17,202 nt of DNA from Gemmatimonadota bacterium (GTDB lineage Bacteria > Latescibacterota > UBA2968 > UBA8231): NCBI GenBank assembly GCA_002712305.1, contig PATE01000128.1:1-17202 (forward strand), given 5' to 3'. Shown piece after piece: positions 10,293 to 17,089 of the stretch. A model generated the notes under the pieces. It made no database searches. It was given only the letters and a program-made list of their open reading frames with translations, and was not told where the DNA came from. The position numbers were made by a program, and so were the translations under genes. The stretch's first letter is position 1, and each line of letters begins with the position of its first letter.

Positions 10293-11329
10293 GAGGTCTC
10301 AGTGAACAGTCTAGCGATCTCATCGACGGAGAATTGTGGCAGTGCTTCCCACGAATCATCGCGGCGCAGTCGCACCTCAGATGAACGCCCTTCTACGTGG
10401 CCGCTTCTGACGGTGCCGATCTGCGCGGCCACGATGCCCCGCGTCGCAAGGGCGTCGACGATCGTTCTGGTCGTCCCCGCCGTGCAGCCAATCAGGAGTG
10501 CGCCTGAAGAAATCGCCCCGAAGGGGTCGATGCCGACATCGTCGCACAATCGTTGGGAGAGGGGGGAGATCGGCAGCGTATCCGCGTCGATGTCCAGGTC
10601 GACGCCAGATGCGGTGGCGATTTCTACGAGTGCCGTTGCCACGCCGCCTTCCGTTGGATCGTGCAAGGCGTGGATCTCTCCGGCGGCTTGAGCGATGCGA
10701 GCATCCTCGACCACACTGATTCCGGGTTGGGTCAGATAGTTGGCTGCTTCGGCCAGATCCCGATCACTCCAACCCTTGCCACGCAGCGTGTCCGGCATTT
10801 CCCGCGCGACGATGCTCGTCGCCTCGATGGCCAAGCCCTTGGTCAGCAACAGAGCATCTCCCGGCAGCAGGCCCGACGATCGAATCACTTCGTTCGAGTT
10901 GACCTCGCCGAGCATCTGGCCGATGACCAGGGGCCGGTCGAGTCCCGTCGTGACTTCAGAATGTCCGCCCGCCACACTGACACCAAGCTGACTACACGCG
11001 TCAGCAATCTGTGCGAAGATCTCCTCAAACAGGGATTCCGTTGCCAGGTGCTCAGGGACGATCACGGTGGAGAGGAACCACTTCGGCGTGGCGCCCATGG
11101 CTGCGATGTCGTTCGCATTCACATTCACCGCATACCAACCGACTCTGTCTGTGGCGAAAGTGATGGGATCCGTCTTGGCCACCAGAGATGTCTCGCCAAA
11201 GTCGATGACCGCTGCATCCTCCCCGACACCCGGACCGACGCGCAGTCGCGGATCAACGTGTGCGGCGTGGGTCTGAAGCAGTCGCGCAAGGACGTGGTGA
11301 GGGACTTTTCCCGGTGGGAAGGTCGTCAT
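10289..11329 (-). CDS. AIR synthase / HypE-like protein (PurM-type ATP-binding fold)
   Basis: About 346 residues with the two-domain PurM/HypE/ThiL/SelD architecture. The N-terminal domain carries GPGVGEDAAVIDFG followed by KTDPITFATD, the usual acid-rich nucleotide and metal loop. NVNANDIAAMGATPKW, VAGGHSEVT and the C-terminal-domain motif ALHDPTEGGVATAL are diagnostic. The family activates a carbonyl oxygen with ATP. The closest named relatives are hydrogenase maturation factor HypE and archaeal AIR-synthase-related proteins, but HypE's terminal Cys is absent (it ends FTETS), so a carbamoyl-to-cyanide role is unlikely. ATG 11329 overlaps the cobA-hemD stop as TGATG; a GTG one codon upstream is also possible. 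Its role in a heme operon is unknown. Confidence 0.85.
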   Translation of the reverse strand: MTTFPPGKVPHHVLARLLQTHAAHVDPRLRVGPGVGEDAAVIDFGETSLVAKTDPITFATDRVGWYAVNVNANDIAAMGATPKWFLSTVIVPEHLATESLFEEIFAQIADACSQLGVSVAGGHSEVTTGLDRPLVIGQMLGEVNSNEVIRSSGLLPGDALLLTKGLAIEATSIVAREMPDTLRGKGWSDRDLAEAANYLTQPGISVVEDARIAQAAGEIHALHDPTEGGVATALVEIATASGVDLDIDADTLPISPLSQRLCDDVGIDPFGAISSGALLIGCTAGTTRTIVDALATRGIVAAQIGTVRSGHVEGRSSEVRLRRDDSWEALPQFSVDEIARLFTETS

Positions 11330-12882
11330 CACGCCTGTTCAATCTGCCGATAGTGAGCGGAAATGGCGGCGACGAGATCTTCTACGCTACTCGAGGCTGG
11401 TTGAATCTCGGGCTTCAGTCCCAGATCGATGATGGCGCCGGCCGTGGTAGGACCGATGACGGCGATATCAGCTTTCTCAAGATGTTGCAGCGCGTGGGCC
11501 CTCCCAAGGACGGTGCAGAAATGGTCGACGGCAGAGGGGCTCGCGAAGACGACACAATCGATGGCATCGTCGGTCAATTCCTCCGGGATCGACACCGACT
11601 CCGGCACGGGCGGCAGGTTTTCGTACGCCGTGACACGCGCAACTGTGGCACCGCGACGCTCGAGTTCCTGATCCAGTTCGGTCGCTCCGAGGGCCGATGA
11701 AGGAATCAGCACACGGGCACCTTCCAGGTCGATCTGTGCGAAGGCTTCGGCCAATCCCGCCGCTGAGTGAGATGTCGGTGTGAGATCGGGGACGATGCCC
11801 ACTTCGCCGAGGCGTGAAGCCGTGGCAGATCCGATAGCGGCTACCCTGCAATGACCAAGTGCGCGCGCATCTCGCCCGGATTCCTGCAGGGGGTCGAAGA
11901 AGAACCGGACCGCATTCGGACTGGTGAACACGACCCAGCCATAGTGCTCTAACTCCGAGAGTGCAGTCTCCAAGGGGGCTGGGTTCTCCGGCCCGGTCAG
12001 ATGCAGAAGGGGCAACTCGAAAACCTCGCCGCCTTCGGCTTCGAGCATCAACCGCAGCGGACGGGATTGCTCGCGGCTTCTTGTGATCAGAACTCGTCGT
12101 CCGAAAAGCGAGCGGCCTTCAAACCATTCCAGGGCTTCTCGTTGCTCCACGACGTCGCCGACCACCATCAGGATGGGCGAGCGTAAGTCTGCCTCGCTCA
12201 TCCTGTCTTCGAGCGTTCCCAGTGTGGCCAGCAGCGTGTGCTGCTGGGGGCGCGTGCCCCATTGAATGGCTGCTGCTGGAGTTTCAGCTTGTCGACCACC
12301 TGCCACCAGCGCTTTGGCAATGGCACCGGCATTCCGGCTGCCCATGAAGATCACGAGTGTGCCACCCAGTTTGGCGAGTGCGGCCCAGTCGACCTCGGTA
12401 GCTTCGGGGTCTTCGTGACCGGTGACCAGAGTCGCGGTCTGCGAGAGGCCGCGATGGGTGAGGGGAATCCCTGCATAAGCCGGCACCGCCATGGCCGCCG
12501 ACACACCGGGCACGACCTCGAAGGGGATGCCCGCGTCGCGCAGGGCGATCGCCTCTTCACCGCCGCGGCCAAAGACATATGGGTCGCCTCCCTTGAGTCG
12601 GACAACCCGCCGACCTGCTCTGGCGGCCTCGACCAATTGCTGGTTGAGTTCATCCTGGCGTCGTGTTGAGTCGGCAGGACGTCCGCCGCGATGGCCGGCG
12701 TAGACGCGTTCGCAGGTCCCGGGAGCCAACTCGAGTAACCGAGGATCGAGCAGGTCGTCGTAGAACACGACATCGGCTTCGCTTAGGAAACGGGCGCCCT
12801 TCGTCGTCAGCAGTCCCGGGTCACCGGGGCCGGCCCCCACGATATAGACGCAGCCGCCCGTCGCATGGGGCAGGTGTTCCAT
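11329..12882 (-). CDS. cobA-hemD: Uroporphyrinogen-III C-methyltransferase / uroporphyrinogen-III synthase fusion
   Basis: A 517-residue bifunctional protein. Residues ~10-250 form the SAM-dependent methyltransferase (SUMT): GAGPGDPG (16-23), RLKGGDPYVFGRG (95-107) and PGVSAA (125-130) bind SAM and substrate, making precorrin-2 for siroheme or cobalamin. Residues ~262-517 are the HemD domain (RVLITRSREQ, VFTSPNAVRFF, VFASPSAV, IGPTTA), which closes hydroxymethylbilane into uroporphyrinogen III. The fusion follows hemC, a common arrangement in several phyla, and places consecutive steps together. I chose ATG 12882 (MEHLPH), 7 bases after the hemC stop; the frame upstream lies inside hemC and lacks family character. 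The downstream gene overlaps its stop by TGATG. It acts in the cytoplasm. Confidence 0.95.
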   Translation of the reverse strand: MEHLPHATGGCVYIVGAGPGDPGLLTTKGARFLSEADVVFYDDLLDPRLLELAPGTCERVYAGHRGGRPADSTRRQDELNQQLVEAARAGRRVVRLKGGDPYVFGRGGEEAIALRDAGIPFEVVPGVSAAMAVPAYAGIPLTHRGLSQTATLVTGHEDPEATEVDWAALAKLGGTLVIFMGSRNAGAIAKALVAGGRQAETPAAAIQWGTRPQQHTLLATLGTLEDRMSEADLRSPILMVVGDVVEQREALEWFEGRSLFGRRVLITRSREQSRPLRLMLEAEGGEVFELPLLHLTGPENPAPLETALSELEHYGWVVFTSPNAVRFFFDPLQESGRDARALGHCRVAAIGSATASRLGEVGIVPDLTPTSHSAAGLAEAFAQIDLEGARVLIPSSALGATELDQELERRGATVARVTAYENLPPVPESVSIPEELTDDAIDCVVFASPSAVDHFCTVLGRAHALQHLEKADIAVIGPTTAGAIIDLGLKPEIQPASSSVEDLVAAISAHYRQIEQA

Positions 12883-12889
12883 GGGTCGA

Positions 12890-13810
12890 TCAGGCCGCGT
12901 CGGCAAGCAACGAGGCGGCGCCTTCGGCCTTGAGTTGGTCGCCGAGCTGCACACCCAGGTCGGCCGCCTCTGCGGGAGAGCCGGAAACAACGCCGTGACA
13001 GGCCGTGGTGCCATCGGCGCTAAGGACGGTGCCATCTATCTGGAGTTTGTCGCCCGACATGCGGCCCCACGCGGCGATGGGTGCCCGACAACCCCCACCG
13101 AGGCTGGCGAGAAAGGCGCGCTCGGCCGTCACGCTCGCATGCGTTTCGTCATGGTCGAGAGCAGCCACGATTCGGTGAGACTCGGTGTCGCTGACCAACG
13201 TCTGTAGCCCCAGGGCGCCTTGGCCAGGTGCCGGAAGAACCTGCATGGGATCGAGATAGGCGCTGATCCGATCGGAGTAGCCCAGTCGATGCAGGCCGGC
13301 CGCCGCCAGGACCACGGCATCGAGTTCTCCCTCTGAGACCTTTCGAAGTCTCGTATCCACATTACCGCGAAGATCCGAGAATCGCAGGTCGGCTCGTAAG
13401 GCAAGCAGCTGAGCCTGACGACGTGTGCTGCCCGTACCGACGCGGGCACCATCGGGCAGTTGTTCGAGTCCACCACCGTCGGAGGTGACCAGAACGTCTC
13501 GCGTGTCTTCGCGGGTTGGAATGGCCGACAAGCGAAGCCGTTCGTCCATCTCGGTGGGCAAGTCCTTCAGGCTGTGTACGGCCAGTTGCCCCTGGCCCGC
13601 CAGCAAGGCTCGCTCAATTTCTCGCGTGAAGACGCCCTGACCGCCGATCTGGCTCAGGGACTGCCTGTCCACATCTCCTCTCGTGGAGATGATTTCAAGC
13701 TGAACGTCGATCTCCTGCTGCCAGTGGGCGGCAAGGTGATCCCGAACCATCCCCGACTGCGTCGTGGCCAGCTGACTGCCTCGGGTACCGATGAGAATCT
13801 TCGTGGACAA
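12890..13810 (-). CDS. hemC: Hydroxymethylbilane synthase (porphobilinogen deaminase)
   Basis: A full-length 306-residue HemC that polymerises four porphobilinogens into hydroxymethylbilane. IGTRGSQLA (7-15), LKDLP with catalytic Asp83, GTGSTRRQAQ, LRGNVDTRL and LPAPGQGALG are all present, and Cys241 in GGGCRAPI carries the dipyrromethane cofactor. The start is TTG at 13810-13808, fixed by alignment with the start of the hemC fragment at 15378; an ATG slightly upstream is in another frame. It is transcribed from its own promoter after the glnA terminator and leads the operon with cobA-hemD, the AIR-synthase-like gene and the HAD gene. A diverged copy of its first 88 codons lies at 15114-15378. 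Confidence 0.96.
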   Translation of the reverse strand: MSTKILIGTRGSQLATTQSGMVRDHLAAHWQQEIDVQLEIISTRGDVDRQSLSQIGGQGVFTREIERALLAGQGQLAVHSLKDLPTEMDERLRLSAIPTREDTRDVLVTSDGGGLEQLPDGARVGTGSTRRQAQLLALRADLRFSDLRGNVDTRLRKVSEGELDAVVLAAAGLHRLGYSDRISAYLDPMQVLPAPGQGALGLQTLVSDTESHRIVAALDHDETHASVTAERAFLASLGGGCRAPIAAWGRMSGDKLQIDGTVLSADGTTACHGVVSGSPAEAADLGVQLGDQLKAEGAASLLADAA

Positions 13811-13892: not shown

Positions 13893-13933
13893 ACAAAAGA
13901 AGAAGGGCGTGGATCCTGATGGATCCACGCCCT
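13893..13933 (-). terminator. Intrinsic terminator of glnA
   Basis: A 13-bp perfect stem (13904-13916 with 13921-13933) around the loop TGAT is followed on the minus strand by TTCTTCTTTT. It lies about 22 bases after the glnA stop codon and before the hemC promoter. The palindrome contains GGATCC twice. Confidence 0.9.
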
Positions 13934-13955: not shown

Positions 13956-15074
<1,119 letters not shown>

Positions 15075-15077
<3 letters not shown>

Positions 15078-15113
15078 GACTACAAGTTCGTCGACTTTCC
15101 CGGCACCTGGCAG
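15075..15113 (+). pseudogene. glnA: glnA pseudogene, inverted 13-codon piece
   Basis: On the plus strand these bases encode VDYKFVDFPGTWQ, the second beta-strand region of GSI (compare VDLRFxDFPGxWQHF in relatives). It is in opposite orientation to the rest of glnA and directly abuts it, sharing GTC/GAC at 15075-15077. In the rebuilt gene it follows codon 35 of the 5' piece (GVKM) and precedes the HFTTPITEF of the piece at 16774. Confidence 0.88.
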
Positions 15114-15378
15114 ACATCTGAGTGGGGAGATCTTTCAGGCTGTGAACGGCCAACTGAACGCGACCATCGAGGAGGGCCCGCTCGATCTTGCGGGTAAAAG
15201 CGCCCTGTCCACCGATCTGACTCAACGACTGTTGATTGACGTCTCCCTTGGTCGAAATGATCTCGAGCCGGACGTTGATTTCTTCACCCCACGCAGCGGC
15301 GAGCTGGTCGCGGATCATCCCGGATTGGATCGTGGCCAACTGGCTGCCGCGCGTGCCAATCAGGAGCGTCGTGTGCAC
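15114..15378 (-). pseudogene. hemC: Truncated second hemC (5' 88 codons)
   Basis: A GTG start at 15378 opens a frame matching HemC for 88 residues (LLIGTRGSQLA, LEIISTKGDVNQQSLSQIGG, FTRKIERALL, VHSLKDLPTQM). I count 68 of 88 residues identical to the native HemC at 13810, so it is a copy from a relative or an old paralogue, not a recent duplicate. Similarity stops at the Met codon 15117-15115, exactly where the glnA piece begins; the frame then runs through antisense glnA into an unrelated short tail. It lacks the catalytic-core remainder and the cofactor cysteine and cannot work. Confidence 0.9.
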
Positions 15379-15413
15379 AGGTTGCTTTCTTCACGAGGAG
15401 GAGATAAGCGGGG

Positions 15414-15442
15414 AATATGCGAGGGGGTCAAGGTCGGAGCAA
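15414..15442 (-). promoter_or_regulatory. Promoter of the hemC fragment
   Basis: TTGCTC (15442-15437), 17 bases and CATATT (15419-15414) on the minus strand match the native hemC promoter in hexamers and spacing. It probably still fires and transcribes the hemC remnant into the glnA remnant. Confidence 0.55.
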
Positions 15443-15462
15443 CCATCGATGTGCAGAGGTGA

Positions 15463-15491
15463 AAAGGAGCCGTGAAGCCTTCACGGATTCC
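15463..15491 (-). terminator. Second terminator upstream of the hemC fragment
   Basis: CCGTGAA (15470-15476) pairs with TTCACGG (15480-15486) around a 3-base loop, with outer GGA/TCC pairing possible. On the minus strand CTCC and then TTTT follow. It occupies the same place relative to the hemC fragment as the glnA terminator does to native hemC, so it probably ended the donor's upstream transcript. Confidence 0.55.
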
Positions 15492-15574
15492 ACGCTTTCC
15501 AAGAGCTGTAATGGGGCAAACGTGCTGCAGTCCCGTGATCGAGACCCGCTTCTGAAGAAACGTCAGAACAGGAA

Positions 15575-15604
15575 ACGGGGCGACGCCGTTCGGCATCGCC
15601 CCGT
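15575..15604 (-). terminator. Intrinsic terminator of glnII
   Basis: A 13-bp stem (15575-15587 with 15592-15604; one G-U pair in the minus-strand RNA) around a 4-base loop lies about 29 bases after the glnII stop. On the minus strand TTTCCTGTTCT follows, a moderately T-rich tail. Confidence 0.75.
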
Positions 15605-15632
15605 CCGTATGTCAGCCCACAGGTCGATCGTT

Positions 15633-16649
15633 TCAGGCGAGAGCCTTCTTCGTTGACTGGATGATGACGGCAGCGACTTTGTAGGGGTCGGCGTTGGAAG
15701 CAGGGCGGCGGTCTTCCAAGCGGCCCTTCCACCCGTCTTCGATAGTGTTGACGGGGATACGGATCGAAGCGCCACGGTCGAGGGCGCCGTAACTGAACTT
15801 ATCGATCGATTGAGTCTCGTGCAGACCCGTCAGGCGCTGGTCGTTGTCGGCGCCGTAGACAGCAATGTGCTCGGGGATATTCTTGCCGAACTCTTCACAA
15901 ATCCTGGTGAAGGTCTCTTCCTTGCCTGACTCGCGCATGGCGCCGCAGGAGAAGTTTGCGTGCATACCTGACCCGTTCCAATCTCCCTTGATCGGTTTCG
16001 GGTGCAAGTCAATGACGAGGCCGTATTTTTCGGCAGTGCGCTCGAGCAGGTAGCGGCCGACCCACATTTCGTCACCCGAGCGACCGGCGCCCTTGGCGAA
16101 AATCTGAAATTCCCACTGCCCCATCATCACTTCCGAATTGATTCCCTCCACGTTAAGACCCGCTTCAAGGCACAGGTGCAAGTGCTCATCAACGAGGGCG
16201 CGACCATGGGCGTTCTGGCTACCGACTGAAGTGTAATACGGACCTTGAGGAGCAGGATAGCCTCCCTTCGGGAAACCGAGGGGAAGGCTAGTGTCCGGAT
16301 CGATGATGGTGTATTCTTGCTCGAAACCGAACCAGAAGTCATCGTCATCGTCTTCTATCGTCGCCCGGCCATTGGAAGCGTGCGGTGTGCCGTCGGGGTT
16401 GAGGACTTCCGACATCACCAACCAGCCATCGCCACCAAAACGGTCCGGATCGGGGAAGACGGCGACCGGCTTCAGCAGACAGTCAGAGGAGTCCCCTGCA
16501 GCTTGCTCTGTCGATGAACCATCAAAGTTCCAGACTTTTGCATCCTCGACAGAACCCGAAAAATCCTTCTGGATCCTTGTCTTACTGCGAAGGCTCTGCG
16601 TCGGCTCGTAGCCGTCGAGCCAGATATACTCCAACTTCGATTTGGACAT
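15633..16649 (-). CDS. glnII: Glutamine synthetase type II (eukaryotic-like GSII)
   Basis: A complete 338-residue GSII, the short decameric form typical of eukaryotes and of some bacteria (rhizobia, actinomycetes). Signatures are YIWLDGYEPTQSLRSKTR (8-25), WNFDGSST (40-47), GFEQEYT (108-114), INSEVMMGQWEFQI, GDWNGSGMHANFS, GADNDQRLTG and DRGASIRIP. Catalytic Glu and substrate-binding residues appear intact and the frame is clean, so it should be active. GSII lacks the adenylylation tyrosine loop of GSI, so it would escape GlnE-type control. ATG 16649 follows AAGGAAGG at about 10 bases. It sits inside the broken glnA and is the only intact glutamine synthetase in the window. Confidence 0.96.
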   Translation of the reverse strand: MSKSKLEYIWLDGYEPTQSLRSKTRIQKDFSGSVEDAKVWNFDGSSTEQAAGDSSDCLLKPVAVFPDPDRFGGDGWLVMSEVLNPDGTPHASNGRATIEDDDDDFWFGFEQEYTIIDPDTSLPLGFPKGGYPAPQGPYYTSVGSQNAHGRALVDEHLHLCLEAGLNVEGINSEVMMGQWEFQIFAKGAGRSGDEMWVGRYLLERTAEKYGLVIDLHPKPIKGDWNGSGMHANFSCGAMRESGKEETFTRICEEFGKNIPEHIAVYGADNDQRLTGLHETQSIDKFSYGALDRGASIRIPVNTIEDGWKGRLEDRRPASNADPYKVAAVIIQSTKKALA

Positions 16650-16698
16650 AGGGGATTAACCTTCCTTTTTCATTTCTGGTAGTGACTTAGTGACGCAG

Positions 16699-16762
16699 CG
16701 GGCGCTTTTGCCTCGAAGGCACCGCTACGAAAACAAAAATCCAATTTGGAGACAAGCGCCCG
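16699..16762. promoter_or_regulatory. Nested palindromes upstream of glnII
   Basis: CGGGCGCTT (16699-16707) and AAGCGCCCG (16754-16762) form a 9-bp perfect inverted repeat around 46 bases. Inside are TGCCT-CGA-AGGCA (16709-16721) and TCCAA-T-TTGGA (16740-16750). The block is AT-rich between the arms and sits 50-113 bases before the glnII start. It could fold as a leader RNA or hold operator sites controlling glnII; alternatively the outer arms are the remains of a terminator of the donor's upstream gene. I do not recognise a known glutamine riboswitch here. Confidence 0.4.
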
Positions 16763-16773
16763 ATTTTCCGGAG

Positions 16774-16983
16774 CATTTCACGACGCCGATCACCGAGTTT
16801 TAAGAAGACTGCTTCACAGATGGTCTCGGTTTTGACGGGTCCAGCATCCGTGGCTGGCAGGCGATCAACGAGTCCGACATGCTCGTCATGCATGATCCAT
16901 CGACGGCGGTCATGGATCCATTCACCGAGGTGCCCACACTCTCGTTGATCTGCGACATTGTCGACCCGATCACGCGCGAAGAC
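16774..16983 (+). pseudogene. glnA: glnA pseudogene, inverted 70-codon piece
   Basis: The plus strand encodes HFTTPITEF, a TAA at 16801-16803, then [39 protein letters not shown] and [20 protein letters not shown]. This is the GSI N-terminal domain; [18 protein letters not shown] contains the conserved latch and Asp50 loop that completes the neighbouring subunit's active site. The strand is opposite to the rest of glnA. In the rebuilt gene it joins VDYKFVDFPGTWQ upstream and YGRDPRAVSKR downstream without loss of frame. The TAA is a second disabling mutation. Confidence 0.93.
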
Positions 16984-16984
16984 T

Positions 16985-17089
16985 CATCTTGACACCGTCA
17001 CGTTTGGCCTGAGCAACGACGGATTTGGCGCTGGCCTTGCTGGAAGCGGCGGCCTTGGCCTTCGGCTTCCTGGTGGTACTCTTTGCCAT
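16985..17089 (-). pseudogene. glnA: glnA pseudogene, 5' end with start codon
   Basis: ATG 17089-17087, preceded by GAGGA, opens 35 codons: a 20-residue Lys/Ala/Ser-rich leader (MAKSTTRKPKAKAAA...) and then [13 protein letters not shown], the first helix of GSI. The frame then enters antisense glnA and stops three codons on. Joined to VDYKFVDF at 15075 it gives the normal GSI start. The basic leader is an unusual extension for GSI. The upstream 110 bases (17090-17202) would hold the glnA promoter; I see no convincing hexamers there. Confidence 0.85.

Follow-up and report, generated by a model that had tools for sequence, protein, structure and literature searches.

When an essential enzyme has been displaced by an unrelated one, this is as a rule deduced only once the event lies far in the past; does the locus described here hold such a displacement while it is still in progress? 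The window, by which we mean the whole stretch of 17,202 bp that was analyzed, is the entire contig C128 of a 4.77-Mb assembly in 146 contigs that is 90.9% complete. An earlier note had claimed that a block at 15114-16773 interrupts glnA, the gene for type I glutamine synthetase (GSI), destroying it and supplying an intact glutamine synthetase of the unrelated type II (GSII) at the same site. We consider it probable that this is a real event, in which GSII is taking the place of GSI at its own site and the transition is still visible.

The native glnA lies on the minus strand (17089-13956), complete in content and broken in structure. Read along that strand, it begins with codons 1-35 in native orientation (16985-17089, placed by alignment to the glnA of the relative G015), followed by a single extra base at the inversion junction (16984), codons 49-118 inverted onto the plus strand (16774-16983), the inserted block of 1,660 bp, codons 36-48, also inverted onto the plus strand (15075-15113), and finally codons 119 to the stop in native orientation (13956-15074). 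The insert separates codon 48 from codon 49, with a 2-bp (AG) ambiguity in its position, and it forms, together with codons 36-118, an inverted stretch of about 1.9 kb (15075-16983). When re-ordered, the pieces yield a complete gene that aligns to the G015 glnA at 83% identity without a break at the joints, and no codon has been lost across any of the four junctions. The block had thus been delimited exactly to the base and the gene is indeed broken, but not by one simple insertion: besides the insert, the intact reading frame expected of a GSI-beta GlnA is lost to the inversion and to two in-frame TAA codons, at codon 58 in the inverted segment (16801-16803) and at codon 257 in the last piece (14660-14658). 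Upstream of glnA the contig extends for a further 113 bp; downstream of it follow, all on the minus strand, a terminator-like hairpin (13904-13933), the intact native hemC (12890-13810) and a fused cobA-hemD (11329-13035), which is next in the conserved order.

Sequencing error was considered as the source of the stop codons and rejected: internal stops are absent from 11 other genes of the window, albeit selected as open frames, and likewise from hemC, P-II, glnII and two other glutamine synthetase genes, which were found by homology. The window glnA has also changed at sites that do not vary among 14 relatives (P to H, P to L, S to N and A to S) and shows a slight excess of changes relative to the G015 glnA, from which it differs by 146 synonymous and 39 non-synonymous single-base codon differences. 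The TAA codons and conserved-site changes occur in a gene that overall still looks constrained, and its loss is, to judge from these substitutions, recent. Its C-terminal piece keeps the tyrosine of the IYDL/LYDL motif (in a segment of 11 residues), which we take to be the adenylylation target of GSI-beta.

The insert contains an intact glnII of 338 codons and a stop (15633-16649, minus strand), its terminator-like hairpin (15575-15604, minus strand), a hemC upstream region and codons 1-88 of a further, diverged hemC, here hemC' (15114-15378, minus strand). Hence, the description of an intact GSII within a destroyed GSI gene stands, and has to be amended by the hemC fragment, which, like the inversion and the two stop codons, goes unmentioned in the earlier note. 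The enzyme is identified by full-length matches to both a GSII profile and a solved enzyme. The NCBIfam GlnII model NF041605 is by far its best model (404 bits, E 4e-121, residues 5-336 of 338), yet the score falls under the curated equivalog cut-off of 500 bits, so that the protein represents a diverged GSII branch; the nearest solved structure by sequence is PDB 4bax (337 bits, E 1e-99). With the GlnII proteins of Rhizobium, Streptomyces and Verrucomicrobiota it shares the sequence motifs and the full-length match, and differs from them in its divergence and sub-threshold score. In the glnII tree the copies of the window's family (f1) form one supported clade (97/93), the clade enclosing them also holds Verrucomicrobiota and Planctomycetota copies, and the window copy is nearer to those of genera g6 and g7 and of some marine MAGs than to those of g5. 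A type II glutamine synthetase, 58-67% identical, is also present on six IMG/VR viral contigs (L205-L210); a search of viral contigs for the junction word gave no match and is uninformative.

Insertion of a transposon or integron was rejected, as there are no terminal inverted repeats, no recombinase and no target duplication beyond the 2-bp AG: the insert lacks any transposase or integrase gene, and the repeat listing contained no terminal repeats, leaving at most that AG repeat. A related alternative is that the inverted stretch constitutes a phase-variable switch turning glnII on and off, as might be suggested by the insert it holds and by the short, imperfectly matching inverted sequences on either side of it (ATGGTC / GACTAT). 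We regard such a switch as scarcely credible, because long inverted repeats were not found at the ends, no recombinase gene was seen in the window, and glnA would be lost in either orientation.

The source of the block is indicated by hemC', which is about 75% identical to the intact hemC of the window (13810-12890) and groups in the hemC tree with the hemC genes of the window and of G001, both of genus g1 (support 96/89). On this phylogenetic evidence, the block probably derives from the corresponding locus of a closely related donor near genus g1. The donor genome was not found among the genomes compared, and neither a further copy of the insert nor the remainder of the donor hemC was found in the assembly.

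The same kinship of the two loci would also be expected if the arrangement were a chimera of the assembly or library, in which the organism's own glnA-hemC locus had been spliced with the glnII-hemC locus of a co-occurring congener. The evidence comes from a single MAG contig of one metagenome assembly, both loci belong to one genus by their hemC genes, contigs of relatives also break in glnII, and there are other odd joins in the assembly (involving a porin gene on C59 and, on C97, a terminal GlnD-like fragment). Such an artefact would, however, require four joins without long repeats in which no base of glnA was lost or doubled, an exactness that allows for one added base and the 2-bp ambiguity; elsewhere in the assembly a contig end shares an exact overlap of 91 bases, which suggests that the joins made in this assembly are long-word joins. 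Furthermore, neither the stop codons nor the glnE remnant described below has anything to do with the joins, the assembly lacks the remainder of the donor hemC, and about 60 orthologs compared with G001 include none with a clear interior break. Among 51 close matches of G001 proteins in 1.19 Mb of the genome, 45 were full-length, three were cut by contig ends, and the remaining three lacked an N-terminal stretch only, most likely on account of over-long query starts; at a looser threshold 55 of 63 were full-length. Given the predominance of full-length orthologs in this sample we reject genome-wide scrambling of the assembly, and a chimera at this one locus appears to us unlikely, with perhaps one chance in a handful. 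Several contigs of the assembly (L183, L214, L217, L219) carry many single N bases, and the window has none.

If the displacement is real, the relatives should be informative on the states that preceded and followed it. Their conserved order is P-II, a porin in some cases, glutamine synthetase, hemC and cobA/hemD, and the genes on the far side of the window hemC are ordered as in G001 and G012. Within this order the glutamine synthetase slot holds glnA in G004, G008, G011, G014, G015, G016 and G017, with the 3' end of glnA in G010, and holds glnII contiguously in G005, G009 and G012, by contig ends in G007 and G013, and also in the record L035 (SZUA-1027). Hence, relatives carry either glnA or glnII at the same flanked position. 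The earlier note had proposed looking in relatives for an uninterrupted glnA-hemC locus, which is present, and had held that a full glnA together with glnII in all of them would count against displacement; the slot instead holds one or the other, and tblastn found no glnA remnants beside glnII in other relatives. G001, of the window's own genus, has no glnA, a slot without any glutamine synthetase and a long GSIII-like gene elsewhere. On the hemC tree the slot content changes about six times, with the window scored as glnII, and G006 scored likewise despite its glnII not adjoining hemC. The slot may be easy to exchange, since a terminator-like hairpin follows each glutamine synthetase gene examined and hemC is preceded by an upstream region of its own. 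Contigs of G005 (L009/L031), G013 (L010/L032), G012 (L011) and G007 (L006) end in or just after glnII, as if this gene were hard to assemble or common to co-occurring genomes. In the window's own assembly, the porin gene that lies between P-II and glutamine synthetase in relatives is found on C59 (L214 4819-5466) in an unrelated gene neighborhood; contig C37, which carries P-II, matches this part of C59 exactly over its first 91 bases (L183 1-91), the two diverging just upstream of the ribosome-binding site, and the shared stretch may be a duplicate, a translocation or an assembly branch.

Displacement further implies that no functional ortholog of glnA persists elsewhere. A search with the PF00120 profile gave matches in four places, namely glnA itself, glnII and two further genes that share 33% and 28% identity with glnA. 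The assembly, 90.9% complete, thus yielded no second glnA ortholog, in agreement with what the earlier note had anticipated, though at this completeness another glnA or glnE could be missing. One of the two further genes, on C117, is a GlnT-like type III ligase (TIGR03105, 671 bits, cut-off 470), and the other, on C101, lies below every glutamine synthetase equivalog cut-off. Because the GlnT-like gene passes its cut-off, it could also supply glutamine, so that GSII may perhaps not be the sole glutamine synthetase. In G015, a second glnA, 55% identical to that of the window, lies beside a second glnE (C44:27433-30991).

GSII is not a target of adenylylation, and the fate of GlnE is therefore pertinent. 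The genome yielded no PF03710 match; a PF08335 search led to C96:1943-2366, which on comparison with relatives represents the last ~135 residues of GlnE in two frames, indicating a frameshift, with the rest of the protein missing and a truncated DegT aminotransferase abutting in front (L216 1528-2366). The genome search for glnE that had been called for thus turned up a frameshifted C-terminal remnant alone. As to the prediction that nitrogen control would change, no full GlnE was found and the adenylylation tyrosine motif of GSI was located; P-II is retained, in three copies. No full GlnD was found in the genome, and a GlnD-like fragment of 48 residues lies at the end of C97 (L215 3396-3818), fused to an unrelated C-terminal fragment. 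Across 18 genomes of the family, GlnE is present in all eight with an intact glnA (that of G010 being cut by a contig end) and full-scoring in none of the other ten (G002 and G006 having weak matches). This association is strong when genomes are counted regardless of kinship (Fisher p 2e-5), and an independent-pairs test gave two supported pairs, both in the expected direction, which are too few for significance.

Although glnA would be expected to die first, glnE looks the more decayed of the two, and its remnant looks older than the break in glnA; its loss may have preceded that of glnA, or may have been due to a single large deletion. This reversal of the expected decay has to be weighed against a reversed order of events, in which glnII was in use and GlnE already lost when a glnA-hemC segment arrived later and was scrambled. 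The same-genus G001 without glnA could be read in the same manner, but it is glnII that lies within glnA, the genus order is kept in the intact hemC and the genes following it, with G001 as closest match, and the relationship of glnA, with G015 nearest, fits descent. We therefore consider the reversed order very improbable.

Under the preferred reading, that GSII is displacing GSI in place, the ancestor would have had P-II, porin, glnA, hemC and cobA/hemD in this order, with GlnE regulating GlnA. DNA of a close relative, whose same locus read glnII-hemC, would have entered the cell, and a 1,660-bp piece of it would have been end-joined into glnA after codon 48, all of the glnA sequence being retained. 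Inversion of codons 36-118 along with the insert, whether later or in the same complex repair, would have left glnII on the strand of hemC. The end state of the join and of the inversion is observed directly in the contig, whereas the mechanism of joining and the order of the events are inferred. With GSII, which offers no adenylylation target, making glutamine, both glnA and glnE are proposed to have become dispensable, the former then acquiring its two stops and the latter being cut down to a frameshifted tail.

The in situ displacement of genes in operons, whether xenologous or non-orthologous, has an established name (Omelchenko et al. 2003, as cited in PMC1779527). The present case resembles it in that a gene in a conserved place is replaced by one of other origin and the same role, and differs in that the old gene persists in pieces around the new and in that the two enzymes are of different glutamine synthetase types. 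Among marine bacteria GSII is frequent and in many cases lies close to P-II, and adjacent GSI and GSII genes were recorded in 19 cases in Global Ocean Sampling data and in one in Frankia alni (PMC1821046). Those pairs resemble the window in having GSI and GSII at one locus, with linkage to P-II, in marine bacteria; in them, however, the two genes are neighbors and apparently both functional, whereas here GSII lies inside a dead GSI. Our literature search, which covered open-licence papers, found no paper describing a GSII inserted inside a broken glnA.

On a narrow balance, we favor the broader view that exchange recurs in the family at the slot preceding hemC, where a GlnE-regulated GSI has repeatedly been swapped for GSII, which is no adenylylation target, and that this genome is an intermediate, in which the remnants of glnA and glnE give the order of displacement and the structure of the join. 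Here the old gene lies in pieces around the new one and a remnant of its regulator survives, while near relatives show the states before and after. Taken together, these make testable both the course of such swaps, with insertion first and loss after, and their cost, which, throughout a family of uncultured bacteria, would be that glutamine synthetase is no longer under covalent control.
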